A DNA stretch of 64,000 nucleotides, from positions 124,001 to 188,000 of the forward strand of contig WVSL01000004.1 of NCBI GenBank assembly GCA_015689685.1. The letters are read 5' to 3'. A program made the translations under genes and the position numbers. The notes below the pieces were generated by a model, which did no database searches, was not told where the DNA came from, and worked only from the letters and a program-made list of their open reading frames with translations. Shown here in pieces: positions 10,775 through 14,932 of this stretch. Each line of letters starts with the position of its first letter. Position 1 is the first letter of the stretch. The stretch is from Rhodobacterales bacterium HKCCE2091 (GTDB lineage Bacteria > Pseudomonadota > Alphaproteobacteria > Rhodobacterales > Rhodobacteraceae).

Positions 10775-11362
10775 ATGGCCGAAACCGATCCGCGGATCGA
10801 GCTGTTCTACGACAGCGAACGGGACTGGAACGCCGAACTGCGTGCCCTGCGGAAGATTCTCCTGTCCGCAGGGCTCGGCGAGGAATGGAAGTGGCGCCAG
10901 CCGGTCTACACCGCCCACGGCGGCAACATCGCGACGCTCTGGGGGTTCAGGGACGCCGCCGGGATCGGGTTCTTCAAGGGCGTGCTGCTGACGGACCCCG
11001 AGAAGATCCTGGAACCGGCGGGAGAGAACAGCCGGTCGTCGATGGTGGTCCGTTTCACCGACGTGGCGGCGATCGAGGCGAAGGCCGGGGTTCTGCGCGC
11101 CTACCTGGAAGAAGCGGCGGAGAACGAGCGGAAGGGCCTGAAGGTCGCCTTTCCCAAGGATGACCTCGAGTATCCCGAGGAACTGACCGACCGGCTCGAT
11201 GCCGACCCCGAGTTGCGGGAGGCCTTCGATGCGCTCACGCCGGGACGGCGGCGGAGTTGGGTGCTGCATGTCTCGGGCGCGAAGCAATCCGCGACGCGGG
11301 CCGGCCGCATCGACAAGGCGCGGGACAGAATCCTCGCCGGCAAGGGATTGAACGACCGCTGA
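10775..11362 (+). CDS. YdeI/OmdA-family protein (DUF1801-like domain)
   Basis: The product is a 195-residue soluble protein. The N-terminal half (LRKILLSAGLGEEWKWRQPVYT) fits the DUF1801/YdhG fold. The C-terminal half (PEELTDRLDADPELREAFDALTPGRRRSWVLHVSGAKQ) is the OmdA/YdeI motif, whose basic cluster GRRRSW is highly conserved. YdeI homologues are linked to stress or antimicrobial-peptide resistance in enterobacteria, but the biochemical role is not known. It starts 16 bp after livF with a strong AGGGAGG ribosome site, so it is probably co-transcribed. A functional link to the importer is not implied. Confidence 0.82.
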   Translation: MAETDPRIELFYDSERDWNAELRALRKILLSAGLGEEWKWRQPVYTAHGGNIATLWGFRDAAGIGFFKGVLLTDPEKILEPAGENSRSSMVVRFTDVAAIEAKAGVLRAYLEEAAENERKGLKVAFPKDDLEYPEELTDRLDADPELREAFDALTPGRRRSWVLHVSGAKQSATRAGRIDKARDRILAGKGLNDR

Positions 11363-11376
11363 ACGGAACGGGCTTT

Positions 11377-11391
11377 TGCGACTTATTCGCA
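11377..11391. promoter_or_regulatory. palindromic box 1 upstream of sitABCD (TGCGA-N5-TCGCA)
   Basis: Perfect 5-bp arms TGCGA/TCGCA surround the spacer CTTAT. It lies 65 bp upstream of the binding-protein start and upstream of a TTGACT hexamer (11398-11403) that could be the -35 element. The geometry is identical to a second box 30 bp downstream. GC-rich TGCGA-N5-TCGCA symmetry resembles Fur-superfamily (Fur/Mur) sites in alphaproteobacteria, and Mur is the usual manganese-dependent repressor of sit operons there. That protein assignment is inferred. Confidence 0.55.
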
Positions 11392-11406
11392 TTCCGGTTG
11401 ACTTTC

Positions 11407-11421
11407 TGCGAACGGCTCGCA
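11407..11421. promoter_or_regulatory. palindromic box 2 upstream of sitABCD, inside the likely promoter
   Basis: The second perfect TGCGA/TCGCA repeat has spacer ACGGC, and its start is exactly 30 bp after box 1 (about three helical turns, so the same DNA face). It begins three bases after the TTGACT hexamer at 11398-11403 and covers the region where the spacer between -35 and -10 would lie; a weak CAAATT sits at the -10 position. A repressor bound here would block RNA polymerase. The pair suggests cooperative binding of a metal-responsive repressor. Confidence 0.58.
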
Positions 11422-11455
11422 AATTGAGTGCGGAAGCACGCAAGCGGGGTTTCCC

Positions 11456-12343
11456 ATGCGCCACCTCATTTTCGCCCTGTCCATCGCCGCCACCGCGGGG
11501 CCCGCGGCCGCGCAGGACCGGCTGACCGTCGCCACCACCTTCACCGTTCTCGCCGACATGGCGCAGAACGTGGCGGGCGACGCCGCCGACGTGGTCTCGA
11601 TCACCCGACCGGGGGCCGAGATCCATGGCTACGAGCCGACACCGCGCGACATCCTCCGCGCCTCGGACGCCGACCTGATCCTTTGGAACGGCCTGAACCT
11701 CGAACTGTGGTTCGAGCAGTTCCTGTCCCACCTGGGCGACATCCCGTCGGTCACGGTTTCCGAGGGCATCGACCCGATCCCGATCTCCGCCGGAAGCTAC
11801 GAGGGCCAGCCGAACCCCCATGCCTGGATGGGGCTCGACAACGCGCAGGTCTACATCGCCAACATCGCCGCCGCGCTGGCCGAGGCCGACCCGGACAACG
11901 CCGACACCTATGCCGCGAACGCGGAGGCCTATGCCGCGGAGTTGCGCGCCACGCTGGAACCGCTTCGCGACGCCATCGCCACCATCCCGGAGAACGAGCG
12001 CTGGCTGGTGACCTGCGAGGGCGCGTTCAGCTACCTCGCCCGCGACTTCGGGATGCACGAGCTGTATCTCTGGCCGATGAACGCGGACCAGGTCGGCACG
12101 CCGCAGCAGGTCCGCGCGGTGATCGACGGGGTGCGCGACAACGACGTGCCCGTGGTGTTCTGCGAATCCACCGTCTCCAGCCGCCCTGCCGAACAGGTGG
12201 CGCGGGAGACCGGTGCGGACTTCGGCGGGGTGCTCTACGTCGACAGCCTGTCGGAGCCGGACGGCCCGGTGCCGACCTATCTCGACCTCCTGCGCGTCAC
12301 CGCCGAGACCATCGCGGCAGGCTACGGGGTGGTCGCGGAATGA
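11456..12343 (+). CDS. sitA: Mn/Fe ABC importer substrate-binding protein (SitA/PsaA cluster A-I)
   Basis: The product is a 295-residue periplasmic protein with a signal peptide (cleavage near AAAQD, residue 20). Four metal ligands typical of the TroA/PsaA/SitA fold can be placed: His57 in EIHGYEP, His122 in NPHAWM, Glu188 in TCEGAFSY and Asp263 in YVDSLS. The His-His-Glu-Asp set points to Mn or Fe, not Zn, and the His-rich loop of ZnuA is absent. The [17 protein letters not shown] block is characteristic of SitA. It heads a four-gene operon in which every junction is an ATGA overlap, and the two palindromes upstream suggest metal-dependent repression. Confidence 0.9.
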
Positions 12344-13191
12344 CCGACGCACACGGGATCGACGCCGAACACCTGACGGTGACCTACCGCAACGGCGTGA
12401 CGGCGCTGCACGACGCGACCTTCCACGTGCCGAGAGGGTCCGTCACCGCGCTCGTGGGGGTCAACGGCGCCGGCAAGTCGACGCTGTTCAAGGCGATCAT
12501 GGGCTTCGTTCCCGCTGCCGCGGGCTCCATCCGGATCCTCGGCATGACGGTGCGCGAGGCGCTGAAGAAGAACCTCGTGGCCTACGTCCCGCAGGCCGAG
12601 GAGGTCGACTGGGATTTCCCCGTGCTGGTCGAGGACGTCGTGATGATGGGGCGATATGGGCACATGGGCCTGATGCGCCGCGCGAAGGCCTCCGACCGCG
12701 CGGCCGTGGATGCCGCGCTGGCGCGGGTCGGCATGACCGAGTTCCGCCGCCGCCAGATCGGGGAGCTTTCCGGGGGCCAGCGCAAGCGCGTGTTCCTCGC
12801 CCGCGCTTTGGCGCAGGATGGCCAGGTGATCCTTCTGGACGAGCCCTTCACCGGGGTCGACGTGACCACCGAGGAGCAGATCGTGGCGCTGCTTGGCGAG
12901 CTGCGCGACGAGGGCCGGGTGATGCTGGTGTCCACCCACAACCTCGGGTCGGTGCCGGAATTCTGCGACCGGACGATCTTCGTGAAGGGCACGGTTCTCG
13001 CCTACGGCCCGACCGAGACGACATTCACGCGGGAGAACCTCGAACGCGCCTTCGGCGGAGTCCTGCGGCACCACACGCTCGGCGGGGCCGACCTGCACGA
13101 CGACGACGACGCCCGCGAGGTGGTGATCCTGACCGACGACGAGAGGCCCTTCGTGCAATACGGGGAGAGGGAGGCGCGGGGCGGCGAATGA
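12340..13191 (+). CDS. sitB: Mn/Fe ABC importer ATPase
   Basis: This 283-residue ATPase has Walker [10 protein letters not shown]-loop [14 protein letters not shown], signature LSGGQRKR, Walker [13 protein letters not shown] and switch histidine in LVSTHNLGS. The [11 protein letters not shown]...[10 protein letters not shown] stretch is the form found in SitB/MntB ATPases of the metal-importer family. The C-terminus carries an acidic tail with four consecutive aspartates (HDDDDA), which might sense or bind metal; that is speculation. It powers the SitC/SitD pore. ATG 12340 overlaps the sitA stop by four bases. Confidence 0.92.
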
Positions 13192-14066
13192 CCCTGCTGG
13201 AACCCTTCACCTACAACTACATGCTGAACGCTATGTGGGTATCCGCGCTGGTCGGCGCGGTCTGCGCGTTCCTGTCGGCCTTCCTGATGCTGAAGGGCTG
13301 GTCGCTGATCGGGGACGCGCTGTCCCACTCCGTCGTTCCGGGTGTCGCCGGCGCTTACCTGCTCGGCCTGCCGTTCGCCCTTGGCGCTTTCCTGACCGGC
13401 GGCCTCGCGGCGCTCGCCATGCTGTTCCTGTCCGAACGCTCCGGCCTCAAGACCGACGTTGTGATCGGGCTGATCTTCACCGCCTTCTTCGGGCTCGGGC
13501 TGTTCCTGATCTCGGTCAACCCGGTCTCGATCTCGGTGCAGAGCATCGTCATGGGCAACATCCTCGCCATAACTCCGGCCGACACGCTTCAACTGGCGCT
13601 GATCGGGGGCGTGTCGCTGGCGATCCTGCTGGTGAAGTGGCGCGACATCATGGTGGCGTTCTTCGACGAGAACCATGCCCGCACCATCGGCCTGCGCCCC
13701 GGTGCGCTCAGGGCGGTGTTCTTCACGCTCCTGTCGGCCTCGGTCGTCGCCGCGATGCAGACGGTCGGCGCCTTCCTCGTGATCGCGCTCGTCGTCACGC
13801 CCGGTGCCACCGCATACCTGCTCACCGACCGTTTCCCGCGGCTCATCGCGCTCGCCGTCACGATCGGCGCGGTCACGAGCTTCGTCGGCGCGTATGCCAG
13901 CTATTTCCTCGATGGCGCCACCGGCGGGATCATCGTGGTGCTGCAGACCGCGATCTTCCTCGCCGTCTTCATCCTCGCCCCGAAACACGGACTGATCGCC
14001 GCCCGCCGCCGCGCGGCGGAGGCGCTCGCCGAGGCGCGGGCGCTCGCGGCGGAGGACCCGGTATGA
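13188..14066 (+). CDS. sitC: Mn/Fe ABC importer permease SitC type
   Basis: The product is a 292-residue inner-membrane permease of the ABC-3 (metal) family with about eight spans. Recognisable motifs are [19 protein letters not shown] near residues 34-52, the [16 protein letters not shown] span and [20 protein letters not shown] near the C-terminus. In SitABCD systems the two permeases are separate paralogues, as here, and form a heterodimer. The cytosolic tail is alanine- and arginine-rich ([20 protein letters not shown]) and probably helical. The gene overlaps both neighbours by four bases. Confidence 0.91.
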
Positions 14067-14932
14067 TCTCGGACCTCCTGTTCCCGTTCCAGTGGCCACC
14101 GATGCAGAACGCCTTCCTGATCGGGCTGATCGTGTCGGTGCCGACGGCGCTGCTGTCGTGCTTCCTCGTGCTGAAGGGATGGGCGCTGATGGGCGACGCG
14201 ATCAGCCACGCCGTCCTGCCGGGGATCGTGCTGGCCTACATCGCCGGCATCCCGCTGATCGTCGGGGCCTTCGGCGCGGGCATGGTCACGGCGCTGGCGA
14301 CCGGTTTCCTGACCGACAACAGCCGGGTCAAGGAAGACACGGTGATGGGAGTCGTGTTCTCGGGCATGTTCGGGCTCGGCATCGTGCTCTACGTCTCGGT
14401 CGACACCAACGTGCATCTCGACCACATCCTGTTCGGCAACATGCTCGGCGTGGAGCGGTTCGAGCTCTTGCGTTCGGGCGTGATCTCGCTGGTGGTCGCG
14501 GGTGCGATCCTGCTCGCGCGGCGCGACCTGATGCTCCATGCCTTCGATCCGGCGCAGGCGCGGGCGGCGGGGCTGCACACCGGTCTTCTGCATTACGGGC
14601 TGCTCGCGGCGATCTCTCTGACCATCGTCGCGGTGCTGACGGCGGCCGGGCTGATCCTCGCCGTGGGCCTGCTGATCGCACCCGGGGCCATCGCCTTCCT
14701 GCTCGTGCGCCGGTTCGAGGCGATGCTGGCGGTGTCGGTCCTCGTCTCCGCCTTCGGGCTGACCGCGGGCACCTACCTGTCCTTCTTCCTCGACAGCGCG
14801 CCCGCGCCGACCATCGTGCTGGTCCTGACCGCGATCTTCATCCTCGCCTTCGTCCGCCGGCTGGTCCTGACCCGCCGCGCGTCGGCCCGCCGCGTGGCAG
14901 GGGCGCAAAAACCGGACTTTCCGGCGAACTGA
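14063..14932 (+). CDS. sitD: Mn/Fe ABC importer permease SitD type
   Basis: The product is a 289-residue paralogue of the preceding permease, with the matching blocks LKGWALMGDAISHAVLPGIV, VFSGMFGLGIVLY and AVGLLIAPGAIAFLLVRRF. The loop VSVDTNVHLDHILFGNMLGV, between two spans, is typical of SitD/MntD permeases. It completes a standard A-B-C-D metal importer without an adjacent regulator gene. It ends 18 bp before the 20-bp dyad in front of the efflux genes, and I see no clear terminator hairpin in between. Confidence 0.91.
   Translation: MISDLLFPFQWPPMQNAFLIGLIVSVPTALLSCFLVLKGWALMGDAISHAVLPGIVLAYIAGIPLIVGAFGAGMVTALATGFLTDNSRVKEDTVMGVVFSGMFGLGIVLYVSVDTNVHLDHILFGNMLGVERFELLRSGVISLVVAGAILLARRDLMLHAFDPAQARAAGLHTGLLHYGLLAAISLTIVAVLTAAGLILAVGLLIAPGAIAFLLVRRFEAMLAVSVLVSAFGLTAGTYLSFFLDSAPAPTIVLVLTAIFILAFVRRLVLTRRASARRVAGAQKPDFPAN

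Follow-up and report, generated by a model that had tools for sequence, protein, structure and literature searches.

The predicted sitABCD promoter region

The window analysed here is a 64,000-bp stretch of DNA from Rhodobacterales bacterium HKCCE2091. It contains the four genes of a SitABCD metal importer, and two palindromes and promoter elements lie ahead of the first gene. The features are listed below in window coordinates; box scores are from a weight matrix built from 96 boxes of other loci.

11377..11391, no strand assigned: box 1, a palindrome of Mur type (TGCGACTTATTCGCA) on the 5' side of the -35 element; exact match, 20.8 bits
11398..11403, forward strand: -35 element TTGACT, from the sequence and the family layout described below
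11407..11421, no strand assigned: box 2, Mur-type palindrome TGCGAACGGCTCGCA, in the promoter spacer; exact match, 18.0 bits
11422..11427, forward strand: -10-like position AATTGA; weak match, placed by analogy with the family alignment
11456..12343, forward strand: sitA, periplasmic metal-binding protein; PF01297, 287 bits
12340..13191, forward strand: sitB, ATPase; NF011630, manganese/iron ABC transporter ATP-binding protein, 460.4 bits (cut-off 393)
13188..14066, forward strand: sitC, permease; best NCBIfam match NF040927, below its cut-off
14063..14932, forward strand: sitD, permease; best NCBIfam match NF040927, below its cut-off

From the end of box 2 to the start of sitA there are 34 bp. 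The gene upstream of box 1 (10775-11362), which encodes OmdA and DUF1801 domains, ends 14 bp before the box and is co-directional with sitABCD, and therefore no divergent gene adjoins box 1 in the window. The original prediction of two perfect TGCGA-N5-TCGCA palindromes with starts 30 bp apart was confirmed, and the TTGACT after which box 2 was said to begin ends 3 bp before it. The spacer had also been described as GC-rich. This is true of box 2, with the centre ACGGC, but not of box 1, with the centre CTTAT. Both boxes fit a 15-bp 7-1-7 palindrome of the type TGCRAAT-N-ATTYGCA, which is a consensus drawn from the loci analysed here rather than from the published Mur logo.

The -35 element of the window is good and its -10 hexamer is poor. 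A promoter at box 2 is a predicted one, because a consensus promoter scan of 11200-11600 found no promoter. Terminator-like sites were not found in the same interval.

Conservation and layout of the paired boxes ahead of sitA

Matches to sitA at E ≤ 1e-60 were found in 60 of 198 same-family genomes, including that of the window. The weight matrix, for which 96 boxes of the named loci L037-L116 served as training set after five near-duplicates had been dropped, was applied to these 60 genomes; the training and test sets may share species. Boxes scoring at least 8 bits were present in 56 of the 60, compared with 3.6% of shuffled 350-bp regions, which supports the predicted metal operator of Mur/Fur type at the promoter of sitABCD. 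The original prediction had itself proposed a search for the paired motif upstream of sitA orthologues. At least two boxes of this score were found in 39 of the 60 genomes, in support of a paired motif ahead of the orthologues, although the 8-bit threshold admits weak second sites, for example those of 8.7 to 9.4 bits in L033, L172, L175 and L181. Exactly one box was found in 17 genomes, and 4 had none.

Counts were also made on larger sets of loci. When boxes of the form TGMRA-N5-TYKCA with a total of no more than one mismatch were sought, a pair was found in 84 of 110 sitA loci (the window and 109 others), a single box in 23 and none in 3. The spacing of the 84 pairs was 27-33 bp in 62 and 47-49 bp in 10, and the 12 pairs with other spacings probably include some that are due to chance. 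Among 140 loci, at least two boxes within 220 bp were found in 100, a count that includes training loci and some near-duplicates such as L008/L040 and L021/L110, one box in 36 and none in 4; the 100 pairs were spaced by 27-33 bp in 82 cases, by 47-50 bp in 10 and otherwise in 8. Since relatives often share the paired layout, the window contains an ordinary, well-conserved switch and not a new system. Loci with the 47-49 bp layout (L012, L017, L032, L038, L039, L042, L044, L061, L076 and L106) have TTGCA soon after box 1, and two of those named are labelled Paracoccus.

The motif is rare outside the family. In a test on 10 class-level loci, 5 had no site of 8 bits and in 4 the sites were weak or single; the usual pair was seen in L119 alone, which itself belongs to the same family. 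Loci that carry the labels Roseibium, Pseudovibrio and Pseudohoeflea have pairs or a strong and a weak box. In three loci of another family (L121, L122 and L124), the region upstream of sitA carries a different palindrome, TTTAAGAATAATTCTAA, together with a TGAGAATG-type site. We take the TTTAAGAATAATTCTAA palindrome to resemble an Irr-type motif.

The suggestion that the exact arms and spacer are a lineage-specific variant did not hold, since the boxes fit the family consensus TGCGAAT-N-ATTCGCA. The box 1 15-mer is present somewhere in nine fetched loci from other genomes (L010, L056, L065, L086, L104, L113, L130, L131 and L147), of which L010 and L065 have identical upstream regions. The box 2 15-mer also occurs in L024 and L156 (both from G076), L035 and L133, and it stands upstream of sitA in G076 and G109. 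In the G076 locus, two boxes lie 32 bp apart, and the 15-mer is box 1 there, whereas it is box 2 in the window; this genome may be close to Rhodobacter sphaeroides. The published forward primer for R. sphaeroides sitA carries the same 15-mer (PMC3413700), and the sequence is therefore not specific to one lineage.

The usual layout in the family is box 1, TTGAC, box 2 and TTTACA, and the claim that box 2 covers the promoter core is supported. In this layout box 2 lies in the promoter spacer. Among the 83 loci with a box spacing of 27-35 bp, TTGA[CA] was found between the boxes in 73. In 50 of these 73 it lies 6 bp after box 1, and in 50 its start lies 8 bp before box 2. A hexamer resembling the family consensus TTTACA is commonly found directly 3' of box 2. 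These distances and hexamers indicate that box 2 fills the spacer and that box 1 lies just upstream of the -35 element. The high information of the arms in the alignment arises partly by construction, because the aligned boxes were picked by consensus. Conservation extends, however, to the centre of box 1, whose bases were free to vary in the search (0.4-1.1 bits, compared with 0-0.3 bits in most of the upstream flank). A search of 61 genomes with a 131-bp region returned the window itself and one marginal match of 28 query positions, in G045; little is therefore conserved beyond the boxes and promoter elements.

The palindromes are very probably tandem operators for Mur, a manganese-sensing Fur-family repressor, on the sitABCD promoter. 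When manganese is sufficient, manganese-bound Mur dimers would sit on box 1, just upstream of -35, and on box 2, within the -35/-10 spacer. With both boxes occupied, RNA polymerase would be kept from the promoter. When manganese is low, Mur would leave the boxes and the importer would be made. The protein that binds both boxes would be the bacterium's own Mur, with manganese as its co-repressor, and binding would lead to repression.

Two variants of this reading differ in the role given to the pair. The first, which follows the original prediction, is that the boxes are phased and cooperative and so form a steep manganese switch. The start-to-start spacing does cluster, at 29 bp in 13 and at 30 bp in 13 of the 39 pairs in the test set (26 of 39 together). 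However, the two boxes of the window are not on the same helical face as had been claimed; at 10.5 bp per turn, 30 bp is 2.86 turns, about 51 degrees short. A spacing of 29 bp (2.76 turns) is 86 degrees off the same face, and spacings of 47 and 48 bp (4.48-4.57 turns) are 171 and 154 degrees off. The modes at 29-30 bp and 47-48 bp are thus not restricted to whole helical turns, and the case for strict helical phasing is weak. What is constant is the distance to the promoter. Because the distances to TTGAC are fixed, they account for the box spacing without cooperativity, and we consider a phased, cooperative pair unlikely.

The second variant is that box 2 is the sole working operator, and that box 1 contributes little or is left over from the promoter of a divergent regulator. 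It would agree with the single box in 17 of the 60 sitA genomes, and a divergent Fur-family gene does share the region beside sitA in 36 of 140 loci (in two of them, L076 and L106, closer to Irr), a count that likewise includes training loci and some near-duplicates. For R. sphaeroides, the passage mentions a single box, the one between -10 and -35 (PMC6956336). On the other hand, at least two boxes are found about equally often in loci without a linked Fur-family gene (72 of 104) and in loci with one (28 of 36). The window also has a pair and no divergent gene beside box 1, and the free centre bases of box 1 are conserved above most of its upstream flank. We consider a role for box 2 alone unlikely.

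The candidate Mur protein and the other Fur-family regulators

The candidate regulator is a Fur/Mur-type protein (L003, gene G000:C17:13211-13567; PF01475, 131.7 bits). Its nearest solved structures are PDB 4ray (4e-54) and 5fd6/5fd5 (about 1e-49), which were deposited as Fur-type regulators. No NCBIfam model reached its cut-off, and the best match, ferric uptake regulator, fell below it; the name Mur therefore rests on the target and on papers on relatives. The sequence alone does not settle between Mur and Fur for this protein. The divergent Fur-family genes beside sitA in relatives speak for a regulator of this family. The one linked to sitA in L149 encodes a protein with only 54% identity to L003, and so the regulator may differ between lineages.

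Papers on relatives favour manganese as the signal. The sitA promoter of R. sphaeroides has a nearly perfect Mur box between its -10 and -35 elements, where box 2 is predicted to lie in the window, and Fur/Mur is needed for an approximately 50-fold induction of sitA on manganese limitation (PMC6956336). The likeness extends to the 15-mer of the sitA primer, which equals box 2 of the window (PMC3413700); the passage names one box (PMC6956336), whereas the window has two. In Rhizobium leguminosarum, where a manganese-responsive Fur-family repressor acts ahead of sitABCD, a mur mutant keeps sitA expression high at any manganese level (PMC5575495). The same regulator and transporter, mur and sitABCD, are described as experimentally validated in Ruegeria pomeroyi DSS-3 (PMC4334477). 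The original prediction had left the metal as manganese or iron. Of the two, manganese appears to be better supported, judging from the passages on relatives (PMC5575495, PMC6956336), and Fur/Mur of R. sphaeroides is reported to have a role in iron as well as manganese homeostasis (PMC6956336).

The regulator, its target and a promoter-embedded box are thus already in print for relatives, and the family-wide paired layout is documented here. A literature search found no account of paired Mur boxes in the same family, which is no proof of absence, as key papers lay outside the search. Two Mur sites, MRS1 and MRS2, were reportedly described at the R. leguminosarum sitABCD operon by Diaz-Mireles in 2005. 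The pair described here indicates the probable regulator and operator of a main manganese importer in this bacterial group.

The genome also encodes Irr- and Zur-type proteins, and SitA belongs to the ZnuA Pfam family (PF01297), so the boxes might instead be read by Zur or Irr, with zinc or iron status setting sitABCD expression. Irr (L004) is above two Irr cut-offs. A search of the genome with PF01475 listed two Fur-family proteins, and it undercounts, since a Zur-type gene seen later at a znu locus was missing from the list. At that locus (L207, G000:C41 near 247496), the Zur-type gene is divergent from a histidine-rich ZnuA-type gene, with a palindrome, GTAATGTTATAACAT, between them. The Zur-type protein scores 103 bits with the NCBIfam Zur model, below the cut-off of 167, and its nearest solved structures include the zinc uptake regulator 4mtd (5e-23). 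The ZnuA-type protein is the other PF01297 match of the genome; it contains a long histidine-rich stretch and has an NCBIfam ZnuA match below cut-off. No Mur-type box was found at the znu/zur region, where the best matrix score was -2.3, and the boxes ahead of sitA are unlike the GTAATGTTATAACAT palindrome. Zinc uptake thus appears to be under a switch of its own, and the separate palindrome makes Zur an unlikely reader of the sit boxes. SitB, moreover, passes the manganese/iron cut-off. As for Irr, the R. sphaeroides study reports that it did not bind a sitA fragment, for which the primer carries the box 2 15-mer (PMC3413700). We regard control by Zur or Irr as highly improbable, and Mur as the likely regulator.

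A regulator of the DtxR family, MntR, was considered and rejected on the one match over the cut-off among three partial matches to PF01325. This match lies in a 231-aa frame, which is presumably of the GntR type. No useful match came from scanning a 40-residue fragment against NCBIfam.

Box patterns in the genome and beyond sitABCD

In the whole genome (4,443,497 bp; 4.44 Mb), the perfect TGCGA-N5-TCGCA pattern occurs only at box 1 and box 2. When up to two mismatches were allowed, the window gave 49 matches, compared with 57.4 expected from shuffles, and therefore only the two perfect sites stand out in it. A chance origin in GC-rich DNA might be considered, as the base composition alone would yield about 4 perfect single sites in a genome and a reversed control pattern occurs once in this one. 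For pairs whose starts lie 15-60 bp apart, however, the expectation is only about 0.0002 per genome, and paired boxes recur ahead of sitA orthologues; on this conservation chance was rejected as having a negligible probability. A looser consensus with one mismatch returned 184 forward matches and its control 160, and is too weak to list a regulon. A tighter consensus gave 3 matches against 1 for its control, and among the 3 only box 1 was perfect.

The paired pattern, with starts 27-33 bp apart, was found in 169 of 394 same-family genomes, mostly once in each, and the control columns were zero. Thirty of these loci, which are not a random sample, were fetched. In 20 of them the pair stands before a second family of binding proteins, with about 31% identity to SitA, and in 8 before SitA itself (7 by BLAST, and L156, the sitA place of G076). 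Of the other two, one precedes a membrane protein of PF11449 and the other appears to be due to chance. The second ZnuA-family binding protein behind a paired operator is seen in L127, L131, L139, L155 and others.

We tentatively propose that a two-box Mur clamp on the promoter is a fixed module of the family's manganese importers, serving both SitABCD and the second, about 31%-identical family, with a rearranged form in a Paracoccus-like group in which the boxes are 47-49 bp apart; that the two forms differ in their range of repression is part of the proposal, which we hold to be possible rather than probable. If it is true, box 2 would sit in the spacer between -35 and -10 while box 1 caps its upstream side, and repression would span a different range in each form although both are built of the same parts. 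The promoter layout may also allow manganese uptake genes to be recognised, including ones that are annotated otherwise.

Mur-type boxes were also seen before genes of PF11449, a family of putative heavy-metal exporters. In a scan of the 14 loci L187-L200, with the two fragment loci L201-L202 left out, a box of at least 17 bits was found in 11. The box lies 156-203 bp before the match, and one locus has two boxes 31 bp apart. L142 and L189 are among the loci concerned. The boxes are hints that these genes may encode manganese transporters. We assume that they could be the MntX of roseobacters.
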